DNA of 64,000 nucleotides from assembly GCA_902768975.1 (NCBI GenBank), contig CACXMZ010000002.1, positions 62,001 through 126,000 on the forward strand. The letters are read 5' to 3'. Positions 56,559 to 63,459 of this stretch are shown piece by piece; the stretch's first letter is position 1, and each line of letters begins with the position of its first letter. A program made the translations under genes and the position numbers. The notes under the pieces were generated by a model. It was not told the DNA's origin and ran no database searches. It saw only the letters and a list, made by a program, of their open reading frames with translations. Source of the DNA: an uncultured Coriobacteriaceae bacterium. GTDB taxonomy: Bacteria > Actinomycetota > Coriobacteriia > Coriobacteriales > Eggerthellaceae.

Positions 56559-56768
56559 ATGACGGACCAGAAAAAAGTAATGACTCCGGAAGAAATTCTT
56601 GAAGCCGCAAAAGGCGAAGGCTACGAGCTTTCTGACGACGAACTTGAAATGGTTGCCGCAGGCGGTGAATGGGTAAACGAAGCCTGCCCCAATTGTGGTC
56701 ATACGGGCACCATGTATTGCCCTGGCACGGGCGTGTCCAGGTGCGGCAAGTGCGGTTCTACCTGGTAG
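56559..56768 (+). CDS. Nif11-leader RiPP precursor-like peptide 1 (Cys-rich core)
   Basis: 69 residues. The leader MTPEEILEAAKGEGYELSDD...EMVAAGG is a Nif11-type leader ending in a double-glycine site (residues 35-36). The remaining 33 residues start EWVNEACPNCG and contain five Cys (43, 46, 54, 62, 65), two of the pairs as C-x2-C, giving a zinc-ribbon look. It ends in Thr-Trp like peptide 2. AAAGGA precedes the ATG. No modification enzyme is directly beside it; the candidate enzymes are at 58.6-63.2 kb. A double hairpin follows. It could also be a non-secreted zinc-binding small protein. Confidence 0.65.
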   Translation: MTDQKKVMTPEEILEAAKGEGYELSDDELEMVAAGGEWVNEACPNCGHTGTMYCPGTGVSRCGKCGSTW

Positions 56769-58584: not shown

Positions 58585-58609
58585 AACACAGGGGACAGTT
58601 CCCTGTGTT
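58585..58609. repeat. 25-bp REP-like palindrome, copy 1
   Basis: AACACAGGGGACAGTTCCC then TGTGTT. It is an imperfect palindrome and identical to the copy at 63237-63261. It begins at the stop codon of the HipA-like gene (58608-58610, read on the minus strand). Confidence 0.85.
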
Positions 58610-59789
58610 AACCCTGAACAATTTCCTTCACGTAGTCGCGCTGCGCTACAAACACACGCGAAACGAGGTCTGCGAAGGCGGGCGGCAGACTCTGGCAGGA
58701 TGCGAATGCATCCTTGACGGCGTCTTCGAAGCCTTCAAGTTTTCGCATGTCACACCAGGACCAATCCCACGACGGGTCTAAGAAAGAAAAGCGTTGCGCA
58801 CAAAACAAATTAACAAGCACGGGGTTTTCGCAATAATACGAAAGAGGAGTCCCGTCGAGCGGAATACCGAAAGCGCCGTCGTAGTCAAAGATGGGTGCCG
58901 CACGCCACACGTCCGTGCTGATTTTGCGTATGGCGCCGACGTTGCCTACGTTGAAATCCGAAAAAAGCGCAAGGCAGGCGAAGCATGCCCGCCTGGCTAC
59001 GTGGGACGAAGCGTCCTCAATTCCGATAGCAGTATAGATATCGACAAGGGCGTCGCATGTCTCCGCCCTCATGCCACCTCCGGCAAAAACGGGACTTTCC
59101 CACGCGTCCACTATCGCGCAGAGCCTGTTCCCGTTGGCAAGTTCTTCGTCGGGGGCAAGCATGAGCGGGCTGACCGAGCAAGGCCTGCCAGAGCGCTCCA
59201 CTACATCCAGGGGAATGAAGTGCCCTTCGCCAAAAAGCAAGGAACATAGTTCGGCACCCAACTTAGCCCCTGCGAGTTCCGCACCATCGGGGTATTCAGC
59301 AGCTTTGACAAGGTAGATGCCTTCGCCGTTGCGCTCCCATGCTTTAACAGCATGACCAGACGTCGTGACTTCAGGAACATTGGGCGAAGCGTCCGCTAGG
59401 TGTGCGTAATCACCCGTAAGAACCGCTTCACCAAAGCTCGGGTCCCAAGCATTGTCGTGGAAGTTCACGTCCTTCCAACCCTCTGTGCTGCCAGGGCTGC
59501 GGTACCAAAGCTGGTCGGTGAGAGAAACACCATGCCCCATGAGGACAATGTCAACAGGCGACCTTGCTCCAAAGGCCGCAAGAATGTCGTCCTTGTCGCT
59601 GCGAAGGGGCGAAATAGCCCGCCTTAACACGAGCATCGACAAAAACCGGTCACTGTTTTCTTGGGTCAGCCCAAAAGAAGAGGCCAGGCTGCTGTTCAGC
59701 ACATTGACGATATGTGCTTTGCCCGTTACCGGGTCAACGTCGAAGTCGACCAGCTCTTGGTCGCCTTGCATGAGTGTGCGCCTGACCAT
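58608..59789 (-). CDS. HipA-like kinase
   Basis: 393 residues. The N-terminal part has MGHGVSLTDQLWYRSPGSTE and WKDVNFHDNAWDPSFGEAV, typical of HipA-like proteins of Gram-positives. Kinase-like elements follow: a candidate ATP lysine in GIYLVKAAEYPDG, a catalytic-loop candidate SDFNVGNVGAI, and a metal-binding FDYDGAFG. No HipB-type DNA-binding antitoxin is adjacent. It starts 21 bp after a Nif11-leader peptide gene, so a role in modifying or regulating that peptide is possible; ATP-dependent phosphorylation is inferred. The ribosome site before the ATG is weak. A palindromic repeat begins at the stop. Confidence 0.6.
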   Translation of the reverse strand: MVRRTLMQGDQELVDFDVDPVTGKAHIVNVLNSSLASSFGLTQENSDRFLSMLVLRRAISPLRSDKDDILAAFGARSPVDIVLMGHGVSLTDQLWYRSPGSTEGWKDVNFHDNAWDPSFGEAVLTGDYAHLADASPNVPEVTTSGHAVKAWERNGEGIYLVKAAEYPDGAELAGAKLGAELCSLLFGEGHFIPLDVVERSGRPCSVSPLMLAPDEELANGNRLCAIVDAWESPVFAGGGMRAETCDALVDIYTAIGIEDASSHVARRACFACLALFSDFNVGNVGAIRKISTDVWRAAPIFDYDGAFGIPLDGTPLSYYCENPVLVNLFCAQRFSFLDPSWDWSWCDMRKLEGFEDAVKDAFASCQSLPPAFADLVSRVFVAQRDYVKEIVQG

Positions 59790-59810: not shown

Positions 59811-59981
59811 CTACCAGGTTTCGTTCATGCAGTTATACCATGCGCCACCTGCGATGGAATCAAGCTGCTCTTCGGTGAGTTCGATGCCTTCGGCTTCGGC
59901 GAGCATAACTAGTTCGTCGGCATTCTTGCAGGCGCGTGCCTTTTCCATTTGTTCAGGAGTTAATTCGTTTATGCTGGCCAT
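59811..59981 (-). CDS. Nif11-leader RiPP precursor-like peptide 2
   Basis: 56 residues, read directly from the minus strand. The leader has INELTPEQMEKARACKNADE and then LAEAEGIELTEEQLDSIAGG, a Nif11-type helix pattern with Gly-Gly at residues 45-46. The short core is AWYNCMNETW: two Trp, one Tyr and one Cys in ten residues. AGGTAG precedes the ATG. It sits between paralogue B (66-bp gap) and the HipA-like gene (21-bp gap) on the same strand, so it is embedded in a likely operon. The Trp-x-Asn after Gly-Gly and the Thr-Trp end are shared with peptide 1. Confidence 0.75.
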   Translation of the reverse strand: MASINELTPEQMEKARACKNADELVMLAEAEGIELTEEQLDSIAGGAWYNCMNETW

Positions 59982-60047: not shown

Positions 60048-61046
60048 CTACAAACTAATTCGTCCTGCTTGTAGGTAAATCTTCGTGTCGAAAACCTTGT
60101 CTGCACGCACGCGAAACTTCGCATACAGGGGGATGCAGTAAAGCGCTTGCGAAACTGTGCTGTTTTGTATCGCCTTCGAAAACATGGTGTCTGGAATGTG
60201 CTGCAATCGGGCATCGGCGACGTGTGAATTCACGGCGAATTCCATAAGCCGTGCCGCAGCACCACCAGGTTCCCAAGGCGGGCGCGCCGTGCTTGCGGGC
60301 ACAAGGGGAAGTTGGGCGGAAATACCCACGGTTTGCCCGAGCCTTTCGTTAGAAAGAAGGTCGAACTGAAGCTCCATGCCGAAGGGCGATGCAGCCACTT
60401 CAGCACCAACGTTGCGGACCGCTGGGCCTTCAACGGCAAAGCCAATATTCTGGAAGTCTTCCTCAAGCTTTGCAGGGTCGGCTGCATACGTGCGTTTTAG
60501 GTCCTTGTTAACGAAGCAGTCAACTCGAACGGGAGCGCCTGGCCTGCCTGGATGCACGCCGAAATACCACACGCGCCAGCCCTGCGGAAGGCGCTTTATG
60601 AAGCCCTGATAGAGCTCTGCTGCTTCGGGCCTGCCCACGTGTGCGAAGAAACCCTCGGCGTCGAAAGCATTGGCAGCATTCACATTGACGTGCACGGCGG
60701 GGGCTTCAATTCGGCCTTCGCCTACGTCGTACGCGAGCGCGATGCCGCCGCCTTCGCGGGGTGCAGATGCATACCAATTCAACAGTTCACCGTGGCCGTC
60801 CAGAGCACTCGGAGTAAAGGGGGCATACTCATGTATACCTTCGTTACTGTAGGCAACATGCAAGTCGAAACGCGGCGGGCCAGTAAGCGGAATCTCGAAC
60901 CAGAGGATGGGCGCCAAGGCGCCGAGCGAAGCACGCTGGCATGCCTCTTGCGCGAGCAGGGTGCTCGTTCCAAATAGGTCGTGTTCTACCTTCTTGGAAG
61001 CCAGGCGGTACAAGGTTTCGTACGCTGTGGTTGCTTCGGCACTCAT
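60048..61046 (-). CDS. Unknown enzyme-like protein, paralogue B
   Basis: 332 residues from the ATG at 61044-61046, which overlaps the stop of paralogue A as ATGA and has GAGGTGG upstream; translation is therefore coupled. It shares several blocks with paralogue A: FEIPLTGPPRFDL, FGVHPGRPGAPVRVD, LEEDFQNIGF, MELQFDLL, and a C-terminal FRVRADKVFDTKIYLQ. The alternation of amphipathic helices and strands and the final K-x-YL strand are compatible with an ABBA-type prenyltransferase fold, but no motif proves it. It precedes a Nif11 peptide gene. Function unknown; peptide modification is a hypothesis. Confidence 0.55.
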   Translation of the reverse strand: MSAEATTAYETLYRLASKKVEHDLFGTSTLLAQEACQRASLGALAPILWFEIPLTGPPRFDLHVAYSNEGIHEYAPFTPSALDGHGELLNWYASAPREGGGIALAYDVGEGRIEAPAVHVNVNAANAFDAEGFFAHVGRPEAAELYQGFIKRLPQGWRVWYFGVHPGRPGAPVRVDCFVNKDLKRTYAADPAKLEEDFQNIGFAVEGPAVRNVGAEVAASPFGMELQFDLLSNERLGQTVGISAQLPLVPASTARPPWEPGGAAARLMEFAVNSHVADARLQHIPDTMFSKAIQNSTVSQALYCIPLYAKFRVRADKVFDTKIYLQAGRISL

Positions 61047-62065
61047 GCTTCCACCTCGCCAGCAGAGAATCTGAGATAGAACTTCGCCGGCTGCGCAACG
61101 CCCCCAGCAAACTTGACCTTCGCGTAGTTGAACAGGCAACAAAGGGCGAACCTGCCCGTGGTCCCGTCTTCGCGGTCGAATGGCACATGGCGCGCTAAGG
61201 CTGCGCCCGCAATAAGCTTCCAGCGATTGTCTGCAAGCCCCCAGTCCTGCAAGATGCTACAGAGGTGGGCACCGTAGCCGCTTTCCATACAGGCGCGAGC
61301 TTCGCGCGGTTTCGTTTCATTGAACGAAAGTGACAAGCCGAATATGTCTCTGAGTGTTCCGTCGGGCATAATGTCGAACTGGAAGTCGATGGACGGTGCA
61401 AGCGTAAGGAAGGTACTGCATTGTTCGAGCATTTCACTGTTGTAGGCGGAAAAACCAATTTGGTCGAACTGCGCCGCAAGGAGTGCAGGATCCTTAGCGC
61501 ATGCCTTTTGAATGTCGCCTGCCAGATAGCCTCCGATACGCATCGGAGTGCCCGCCCGTCCTGGGAAGAGGCCCACATAGGCTGGCGGCCAGCCTTCGGA
61601 CATGCGGTCGGCTACTGCGAGGAAGCTTTCCGTCCGGGCGCCTTCGCCGATGGATTCCAGAAAGGGCGCAATTAGATTTTGGTGTTTGCGGTACTGCAGG
61701 TACACGCCTGCGCGTTCGGTTTCGCCAGCCGATGTATCCAGCTCGATCCCGCAACTCGCATTAACGCCTGTCGCGCAAACATCTGCAAACCAGTCAAACA
61801 TTGCCTGGTAGCCAAAGCCCGCCCCTGGTGCGAACTTGGAGCCGGGCTGCATGCTGTGATGGACCGAAAGCAAGTCGAAGCCCGGAGGACCAAAGAGAGG
61901 AAACTCTAGGTAAGCATCTGGATAGTCGTCGCCTATGAGCGTGCGTTCGTAAACGCTCCGCGCGATGTCGAAGCTATTCCCGAACAGCGCTTCACCCCTG
62001 CCGTCTTTTGCGGCAATTAAATACAGCGCATCGAACACCGTCATCTGAGATGGTTTTCCAGCCAT
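61043..62065 (-). CDS. Unknown enzyme-like protein, paralogue A
   Basis: 340 residues from the ATG at 62063-62065; an ATG seven codons later is also possible, and neither has an ideal ribosome site. It is homologous to paralogue B, with LEFPLFGPPGFDL, VGLFPGRAGTPMRIG, LLAAQFDQIGF, SIDFQFDIMPDG and a C-terminal AKFYLRF. First gene of the minus-strand operon A-B-peptide 2-HipA-like. No signal peptide or membrane segment. The family was not recognised. A tandem pair of related proteins with a precursor peptide suggests two modification steps or a heterodimer. Confidence 0.55.
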   Translation of the reverse strand: MAGKPSQMTVFDALYLIAAKDGRGEALFGNSFDIARSVYERTLIGDDYPDAYLEFPLFGPPGFDLLSVHHSMQPGSKFAPGAGFGYQAMFDWFADVCATGVNASCGIELDTSAGETERAGVYLQYRKHQNLIAPFLESIGEGARTESFLAVADRMSEGWPPAYVGLFPGRAGTPMRIGGYLAGDIQKACAKDPALLAAQFDQIGFSAYNSEMLEQCSTFLTLAPSIDFQFDIMPDGTLRDIFGLSLSFNETKPREARACMESGYGAHLCSILQDWGLADNRWKLIAGAALARHVPFDREDGTTGRFALCCLFNYAKVKFAGGVAQPAKFYLRFSAGEVEA

Positions 62066-62115: not shown

Positions 62116-62152
62116 AACGTAGGAGACAGTTCTATGTATTCCCCCCTGTGTT
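62116..62152. repeat. Degenerate copy of the REP-like palindrome
   Basis: 62116-62140 matches the 25-bp repeat at 19 of 25 positions (core GAGACAGTTC), followed by a half-site CCCCTGTGTT at 62143-62152. It lies in the divergent promoter region between paralogue A and peptide 3. Confidence 0.55.
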
Positions 62153-62223
62153 GCAGCGGGCACGCCAGGACATTCCTCGATAATTGCGCGTATAAGATGT
62201 ATAAGCAACAATGAGGAGGAACC

Positions 62224-62442
62224 ATGGCACACGATAACACCGACAACATGTCCAACGACGTGAAGGCGAAGCTGCGCGGCTGCGAGACTGCCGACGAGAT
62301 CGCAGAACTCGCCCAAGAGGAGGGCTGCGAGCTCACCGACGAACAGCTCGAGAGCTTCTCCGGCGGCTGGGCGGGCAAATGCGACGACTATACCTGCACC
62401 AGCGACACCTGCGATACGTATACAAAAAATATAGGCGAGTGA
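62224..62442 (+). CDS. Nif11-leader RiPP precursor-like peptide 3 (periodic Cys)
   Basis: 72 residues. The leader (SNDVKAKLRGCETADEIAEL then CELTDEQLESFSGG) is a clear Nif11-type leader with Gly-Gly at 47-48. The core starts WAGKCDDYTCTSDTCDTY: Cys 53, 58 and 63 are spaced every five residues in an Asp/Thr/Tyr-rich context. GGAGGA precedes the ATG. The next gene, 39 bp downstream, is a QueC-like enzyme. Codon use favours GAG, unlike most of the window, so the pair may have been acquired together. Confidence 0.75.
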   Translation: MAHDNTDNMSNDVKAKLRGCETADEIAELAQEEGCELTDEQLESFSGGWAGKCDDYTCTSDTCDTYTKNIGE

Positions 62443-62481
62443 CGATTGCCCATGCCTAGCTAGCTTCTCGCACCAGGCAGC

Positions 62482-63228
62482 ATGAGTACAGAGATACGGC
62501 TCTTGTGGACTGGGGGCTGGGACTCGACGTTCCGGCTCTTGCAGCTTTCGCAAATTGAAGGACTGACCATACGTCCCATCTACATCAGGGACCATGGGCG
62601 GCCCAGCATGGCACACGAGCTTTCCGCCATGTGCGCCATCCTGCCGCAGGTTCGCGGCATCGCGCGCGCCCGCGTGATGGACGTGGACCTGTACGACCGG
62701 GGCACGATAGCACACAACTACCCGAACGATGCCATTTCAGAGGCCTACGGCAGGCTCGCGGATGAGTTCGGCCTGGGCTACCAGTACGAGATGTTCGCAC
62801 TCCTGTGCGAAGGCCTGGGCATACGGGCCGAATGTGCGGTGGAGAACTCGCCGAGGAGCAAGGCGAAGCGGGCGATCGAAGCCCAGTGCCAGCTTGTGCC
62901 ATGCGACACGGACCCCTGTGGGAACGGGCGCTTCCGCGTCATCCCCAAAGGCGAAAGCAGCGATGCGGCAACGGTGTTCGGGCGGCTCGACTTCGGGATG
63001 CTTGATGTGAGCAAGGTCGAGACGAAGCGCGTGGCGCAGAAGATGGGCTGGATGCCAATCATGCGGAAGACCTGGTTTTGCCATGAGCCAGTGAATGGCA
63101 AACCGTGCGGAGTCTGCAACCCTTGCAAGGACGCAATGAACGAAGGGATGCGGTGGCGCATGCCACTTTCGGCGCGACTGCGCTATCGGATGTGGCTCGC
63201 CCGGCAAGACTCCGAGCTGGCACAGTAA
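62482..63228 (+). CDS. QueC-like ATP pyrophosphatase beside a Nif11 peptide
   Basis: 248 residues. A PP-loop LLWTGGWDSTFRLL (residues 8-21) matches the SGGxDS adenylation motif. The C-terminus has C-x8-C-x2-C-x2-C (WFCHEPVNGKPCGVCNPC), the QueC zinc site. QueC converts carboxy-deazaguanine to preQ0 by adenylation and ammonia addition. No QueD, QueE or QueF is nearby. Direct linkage to a precursor peptide suggests recruitment to peptide modification, as QueC relatives have been in protein-modifying defence systems; this is inference. GAG-rich codon use. The stop codon abuts a palindromic repeat. Confidence 0.75.
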   Translation: MSTEIRLLWTGGWDSTFRLLQLSQIEGLTIRPIYIRDHGRPSMAHELSAMCAILPQVRGIARARVMDVDLYDRGTIAHNYPNDAISEAYGRLADEFGLGYQYEMFALLCEGLGIRAECAVENSPRSKAKRAIEAQCQLVPCDTDPCGNGRFRVIPKGESSDAATVFGRLDFGMLDVSKVETKRVAQKMGWMPIMRKTWFCHEPVNGKPCGVCNPCKDAMNEGMRWRMPLSARLRYRMWLARQDSELAQ

Positions 63229-63323
63229 CACAGGGGAACACAGGGGACAGTTCCCTGTGTTCGGCACGCAGCCAACGCAGCCTGCCGAACGGGATAGTAA
63301 CACAGGGAACTGTCCCCTGTGTT
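63227..63323. repeat. Inverted pair of REP-like palindromes
   Basis: Copy 2 (63237-63261) is identical to the repeat at 58585. Copy 3 (63299-63323) is its exact reverse complement. A partial unit AACACAGGGG (63227-63236) precedes copy 2 and starts inside the QueC-like stop codon. Between them CGGCA...TGCCG can form another small stem. The arrangement resembles REP doublets. Confidence 0.85.
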
Positions 63324-63459
63324 CCGCGGGCTTCCCCATTGTTGCCCCTACATGAATCAGAGAGACGAAGTGATTGCCATTTCCACGAAAGCCGGATCGA
63401 ATTCCTTTTCCATGCCTTCCAACATTACGATACAATGCAACAAAAACAAAGGTTGAGAC
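63324..63459 (+). promoter_or_regulatory. Upstream region of the MarR gene
   Basis: 136 bp without a gene. GATACAAT (about 63428-63435) is a likely -10 box and AAAGGTTGAG the ribosome site. Confidence 0.4.

Follow-up and report, generated by a model that had tools for sequence, protein, structure and literature searches.

A QueC-like enzyme of gut Coriobacteriia that probably modifies an adjoining Nif11-type peptide, with the C-terminal acid as the most likely site

QueC adenylates a carboxylate, adds ammonia and then dehydrates the product to a nitrile, chemistry that to our knowledge is established on a heterocycle carboxylate and not on a peptide. In Cap9 a protein amine takes the place of ammonia, and members of the family have newly been shown to modify proteins, in the case of Cap9 itself and probably of QatC. 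Nif11-leader peptides, for their part, are known to pair with LanM, with radical SAM enzymes and with others of that kind. According to two papers (PMC13329287, PMC13279940), canonical QueC recognises 7-carboxy-7-deazaguanine (CDG) through VPxRN and YPDC motifs and a Tyr/Asp pair, all of them essential. Another family offers a precedent for the ATP-dependent conversion of a C-terminal carboxylate to a nitrile on a RiPP, namely PesC (PMC13060819).

The window, by which we mean the whole stretch of 64,000 nucleotides that was analysed, contains a QueC-like gene that follows a Nif11-type peptide gene on the same strand, with 39 bp between the peptide stop and the enzyme reading frame. The parts of the locus are as follows.

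61043..62065, minus strand: predicted ABBA/DMATS-type prenyltransferase (from its predicted fold), divergent neighbour of the peptide
62116-62144: degenerate REP-like copy upstream of the pair
62213..62219, plus strand: Shine-Dalgarno sequence GAGGAGG of the peptide gene (sequence)
62224..62442, plus strand: Nif11-type precursor peptide gene, 72 aa and stop (MAHDNTDNMSNDVKAKLRGCETADEIAELAQEEGCELTDEQLESFSGG / WAGKCDDYTCTSDTCDTYTKNIGE)
62224..62367, plus strand: leader, residues 1-48, with a Gly-Gly cleavage motif at its end (profile match and peptide alignment)
62368..62439, plus strand: predicted core, residues 49-72, Trp first
62437..62439, plus strand: C-terminal Glu codon, the proposed modification site
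62482..63228, plus strand: QueC-like PP-loop enzyme gene, 248 aa and stop (motifs, profile comparison, predicted fold and tree)
62509..62529, plus strand: ATP pyrophosphate-binding loop TGGWDST, residues 10-16 (sequence and alignment)
62773..62787, plus strand: LGYQY, residues 98-102, at the position of VPxRN in canonical QueC (alignment)
63079..63126, plus strand: zinc site C200-x8-C209-x2-C212-x2-C215 (sequence and alignment)
63235..63325, no strand given: REP-like pair with perfect 27-nt inverted repeats, just 3' of the enzyme gene

The peptide resembles described Nif11-leader RiPP precursors (TIGR03798/PF07862) in its leader pattern, ELxxEQLE...GG, in the short Cys-rich core that follows and in the candidate modifying enzyme beside it. 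Its Pfam Nif11 score falls below the cut-off (19.9 against 23.8 bits), with NCBIfam in agreement, and a Nif11-type leader ending in Gly-Gly, joined to a short and variable core, marks it as a probable precursor of this class. The initial annotation had recognised a precursor peptide as the direct neighbour of the enzyme and both QueC hallmarks, loop and zinc site, as retained in the latter; our analysis bore out each of these observations.

With canonical QueC (PF06508/TIGR00364; PDB 3BL5) the enzyme shares the PP-loop fold, the GGxDS loop, the zinc site and a similar length. The SGGxDS-type loop reads TGGWDST or SGGWDST across the clade of Nif11-linked enzymes, the four zinc-site Cys are invariant in an alignment of 55 sequences, and profile comparison with seven canonical QueC returned a probability of 97%. 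Unlike canonical QueC, the enzyme sits beside a Nif11 peptide, is not linked to queD or queE, and scores below the curated cut-offs, narrowly for PF06508 (21.4 against 22 bits) and by a wide interval for TIGR00364 (15.6 against 150.3 bits). It also lacks both VPxRN and YPDC, the stretches aligned with them being LGYQY and ENSPRSKAK, and in the alignment these motifs are missing alike from the Nif11-linked clade and from the wider family that surrounds it, in which Q101 of LGYQY is invariant and Y102 nearly so. Only the Tyr and Glu of the canonical YxQxHxxE motif are kept (Y34...E46), Gln and His being absent. Whichever two enzymes of the Nif11-linked clade are compared, dN lies far below dS, and the gene is under purifying selection.

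In the tree, the seven canonical QueC split off with 100/100 support and the Nif11-linked clade is recovered at 100/99, which is the separation from queuosine QueC, and the tracking with one Nif11 peptide subtype, that a phylogeny had been proposed to look for. As the initial annotation stated, there are no other queuosine genes in the window, which lies on contig C2; elsewhere in the genome such genes amount to a PTPS/QueD-like gene, placed between folC and dnaE on contig C3, and a TGT gene on contig C4. A profile search of this genome, which is 96% complete so that a gene may have been missed, found no canonical QueC: the PF06508 matches proved by length and sequence to be GMP synthase, TilS, MnmA, ArgG, ThiI, NadE and similar PP-loop enzymes, and the sole match to QueE is a weak one to a SPASM-type radical SAM protein. 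With TGT present but QueE and canonical QueC missing, the organism possibly relies on salvage of queuine, and no route by which it would make CDG is seen. A second, canonical queC with queD and queE, which had been suggested as something to seek, is thus lacking in the genome itself, where only PTPS and TGT occur, but does exist in the sister genome G337, in a queD-queE-queC operon followed by a queF-looking gene; both G337 and G136 carry a canonical QueC besides the QueC-like protein. Since it lies outside canonical QueC in the tree, lacks the CDG-binding motifs and belongs to a genome without QueE and canonical QueC, the enzyme is, judged by its sequence, not a queuosine enzyme; the contrary case, of a sole QueC that groups with the canonical proteins and serves an otherwise complete pathway, is not what we find. 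Where a genome lacks QueE, a QueC annotation is not to be taken as a sign that queuosine is made.

These results also bear on the suggestion, made when the locus was first described, that a deazapurine acid is attached to the peptide. The QueC fold, and Cap9 as a precedent (PMC11996544), would favour activation of CDG and its transfer to the precursor; set against this are the missing QueE and canonical QueC, with no de novo synthesis of CDG seen, the loss of VPxRN and YPDC throughout the clade and the wide family, and precursor N-termini without the MG motif, and we regard deazaguanylation as very improbable.

An AlphaFold2 model of the enzyme, for which 55 relatives served as input, has a mean pLDDT of 96 and the QueC fold, comprising the QueC core plus one C-terminal helix. 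By structural re-alignment, its nearest solved chain is that of Cap9 (9nto_B; Z 13.5, rmsd 3.1, 164 residues, 17% identity), then YcfA and QueC (3bl5_E, Z 10.7), and QatC reached Z 10.0; Foldseek had put MnmA, LarE and TtuA ahead of QueC, and it was the re-alignment of that list that brought Cap9 and QueC to the top. Cap9 of type IV CBASS (PDB 9NTO) is alike also in having a protein or peptide partner encoded nearby, but it keeps YxDC and puts CDG on an N-terminal Gly, whereas the present locus has neither the motif nor the CDG pathway nor the Gly. The YxDC and RN of Cap9 are absent from the enzyme, as seen through its alignment to canonical QueC, which shares them. None of the six enzyme-linked precursors (N-termini MAHD, MDIE, MDTE, MTHE, MAHD and MAHG) has the exposed N-terminal Gly (MGG) of a Cap9-type partner, or the MG motif found in partners of Cap9 and QatC. 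QatC of qatABCD (PDB 9Y01/9Y02) likewise has a QueC core without the CDG-binding Tyr/Asp and a partner presumed to be its protein substrate, but its N- and C-terminal extensions are large (~400 aa) and its partner QatB begins with MGTS, while our enzyme, at 248 aa, has no such extensions.

The likeness to Cap9, which activates an acid and couples it to the amine of a protein, could mean that a small carboxylic acid other than CDG is activated here and joined to an amine of the precursor, all the more as QatC still acts with a protein partner without the CDG-binding residues (PMC13279940). We think this quite unlikely, as there is no conserved MG at the precursor N-termini, the Lys residues of the core are not conserved in position and no acid-making enzyme is linked to the pair. 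As for membership of a defence system, PADLOC yielded merely a weak QueC match. A search of phages and plasmids gave no match, and viral contigs gave six, none above 33%.

The pairing of enzyme and peptide is reproduced in other genomes. Among 395 genomes of the order and 396 of the class, six intact and closely related enzymes were found (the present one and those of G136, G339, G275, G159 and G337), with 62-80% identity, in two families of gut Coriobacteriia, mostly from the rumen. All six enzymes have as their direct neighbour a Nif11 peptide belonging to a single subtype, which lies upstream and in line at four loci and is divergently transcribed in G136 and G339. The last two are sisters in the enzyme tree and yet belong to different families, so that the pair seems to have passed horizontally from one lineage to another. 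Conversely, when the peptide profile was run against the 396 class genomes, six of the best seven matches were adjacent to the enzyme. From the number of Nif11 peptides, chance adjacency would be expected at about 1-2% per genome, against six of six seen, although the product of these values is illustrative, since the six pairs are related and their counts are not independent; the pairing exceeds chance and is real. Several of these Coriobacteriia encode at least 15 Nif11 peptides per genome, dispersed, together with several C39 transporters.

Where no intact enzyme is present, the peptide is missing or different. For three truncated copies (in G454, G193 and G406, covering residues 71-239, 105-246 and 209-235) the DNA analysed contains no such peptide, and their sequence is continuous, with no Ns in the stretches checked. 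G433, of the same genus, has neither gene: it matches the window through position 62223, directly before the peptide ATG, and then breaks. We do not treat this as a clean deletion of the pair, given that the downstream DNA has no match to our genome within 20 kb, and a rearrangement or an assembly edge may be responsible. In G130 a peptide locus 83.5% identical persists and the enzyme is absent; compared with the locus of G136, identity is 79-84% on both sides, and 0.37 kb takes the place of the 1.98 kb on which G136 carries the enzyme together with a Sir2-like gene. Genes for an AMP-ligase, an acyl carrier protein and a condensation-domain-like protein adjoin the Nif11 peptide in G136 (L019:3703-9064) and, by DNA similarity, in G130 (L155:4271-8015), the QueC-like and Sir2-like genes occurring in G136 only.

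The Nif11-linked clade is nested in a wide family at about 35% identity, with 202 matches confirmed and 78 loci retained, that extends over Bacteroidota, Pseudomonadota, Nitrospirota, Bacillota, Elusimicrobiota and others, most members scoring weakly with PF06508. The parts of a QueC family survey available to us contain no description of it (PMC13329287). At least 41 of 73 loci have glycan-assembly genes within 6 kb, a rough count because the simple gene caller was weak in loci of high GC; those seen include glycosyltransferases, UDP-glucose dehydrogenase, CapK-like and TupA proteins and sugar-transfer ATP-grasp proteins. Near members of the wide family outside Coriobacteriia, the Nif11 profile found no match. 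The closest outgroup to the clade is a protein of a sheep-rumen Elusimicrobia that adjoins glycosyltransferases, and this, with the nesting in a family of glycan clusters, suggests that the enzyme was recruited from a glycan cluster to the peptide. Divergent genes of the wide family also stand in tandem, two to four in a run, mostly in glycan clusters (L059, L079, L093, L054, L066 and L060).

Such an ancestry could be taken to mean that the substrate is still a small molecule or glycan, and that the peptide is a neighbour for some other reason, such as a joint mobile cassette; the REP-like repeats that flank the pair and the abundance of Nif11 peptides in these genomes fit this view, as do the 41 loci with glycan genes. 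We hold it to be unlikely, in that no glycan cluster is seen beside the loci of the clade, the peptide subtype tracks the presence or absence of the intact enzyme, and the C-terminal residue of the peptide differs where the enzyme is absent.

This residue is the proposed site of modification. W49, C53, C63, N69, G71 and E72 are invariant in the five peptides that can be aligned, and the sixth, that of G337, shares just the leader, W-G after the Gly-Gly, the Cys residues and the final Glu, having no N-x-G. A C-terminal Glu ends six of six enzyme-linked peptides, against two of 42 other Nif11 peptides of these genomes (Fisher P 2e-6, with relatedness ignored). The G130 peptide, without an enzyme, has Val in place of the terminal Glu and has lost the first core Cys. 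Modification of a peptide carboxylate, the second reading of the initial annotation, fits this pattern better than the first, but the Asp residues of the core, among which it had placed the site, are not conserved in position, and the conserved carboxylate is that of the C-terminal Glu. The conserved C-terminus could alternatively serve recognition rather than being modified.

With CDG probably unavailable, the CDG motifs gone and a carboxylate invariant in the partner, the economical reading is that the C-terminal carboxylate of the peptide is the acid substrate. We therefore consider that the enzyme probably modifies the adjoining peptide with ATP, most likely at its C-terminal acid, as far as can be judged from comparison of sequences. 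That Cap9, the nearest solved fold, acts on a protein lends this some support. More specifically, and with slightly less than even confidence, we propose a minimal RiPP unit made up of a Nif11-leader precursor and a dedicated ligase of QueC fold that activates a carboxylate, most likely that of the terminal Glu. The enzyme, probably recruited from the QueC-like family common in glycan gene clusters, would bind the leader-bearing precursor and use ATP to adenylate the carboxylate at the end of the tail N-x-G-E; nitrogen would then replace AMP, yielding an amide and, if a second ATP is spent, possibly a nitrile. Cleavage after the Gly-Gly and export of the product would fall to a shared C39-peptidase transporter whose gene lies elsewhere in the genome. 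Transporters of this type occur in seven of seven genomes searched, and our genome has three C39 peptidase genes, none of them in the window. PesC, the nitrile synthetase of the nitrilobacillins (PMC13060819), is alike in acting on a RiPP precursor by ATP-dependent activation of a C-terminal carboxylate, shown in that case and proposed in ours, but it belongs with the asparagine-synthetase-like enzymes, draws on Gln and depends on hydroxylation by an MNIO partner, of which we noticed none here.

An activated Asp or Glu carboxylate of the core might instead be captured by an internal nucleophile, a core Cys or amine, to form a thiolactone or macrolactam. We know of no cyclase precedent in the QueC family, the Asp and Lys positions are unconserved and the N-terminal amine is blocked before leader removal, which make cyclisation rather unlikely, even though the core has two conserved Cys besides the conserved terminal Glu and asparagine-synthetase-like enzymes both amidate and form lactams (PMC13060819).

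Returning to the enzyme-peptide pair, a second modifying enzyme for the same peptide may be encoded next to it. Two paralogues of ~340 aa, at 61043-62065 and 60048-61142 on the minus strand (others at L184-L195), lie divergently to the peptide and belong to no Pfam or NCBIfam family; the one modelled adopts a confident ABBA fold that matches tryptophan/indole prenyltransferases (DMATS, CymD, PriB) with Z 15-16 over 270-290 residues. This prenyltransferase-like family, with one to nine copies in 23 of 138 genomes of the bacterial family, is found in genera rich in Nif11 peptides and often near the peptides themselves, most of which, in these genomes, have a core with Trp within a few residues of the Gly-Gly. 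It may be an expanded group of prenyltransferases that act on Trp in Nif11 peptides. A fuller proposal, which we put forward more tentatively than the two-gene unit, is a new class of RiPP modification in which a PP-loop enzyme of the QueC family turns the carboxylate of the Glu that ends a Nif11 precursor into an amide or nitrile; the Trp with which the core begins might in addition be prenylated by the neighbouring DMATS-type enzyme.

We know of no other QueC-family enzyme whose substrate is the carboxylate of a ribosomal peptide itself. If correct, the proposal would provide the first and would extend the QueC fold to ribosomal peptide natural products in a compact two-gene system; for the wider family in glycan clusters it would suggest ATP-dependent carboxylate chemistry as well. 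A literature search found no pairing of a QueC-family enzyme with a Nif11 or other ribosomal peptide, a weak sign of novelty given that most subscription journals fell outside its coverage; for QueC with RiPPs it returned the nitrilobacillin preprint and one unrelated paper alone, and for Nif11 RiPPs of Coriobacteriia nothing.

The surroundings of the pair have features of their own. REP-like palindromes (AACACAGGGGACAGTTCCCTGTGTT) occur at 63235-63325, 58586-58608 and 62116-62144, and also in G433, close to the break at which peptide and enzyme are missing. A protein resembling HipA kinase, with no Pfam match (58608-59789, minus strand), follows a Nif11 peptide (59811-59981, minus strand) with the core AWYNCMNETW, and a 35% homologue of it adjoins a Nif11 peptide in G239 (L141:1791-3116). 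Finally, a Nif11 leader is fused to a zinc-ribbon-looking core, CPxCGHTGTMYCPGTGxSRCGKCGSTW, at 56559-56768 on the plus strand, as well as at L021:3244-3453 and L028:8558-8821, and this peptide is nearly identical in the three genomes.
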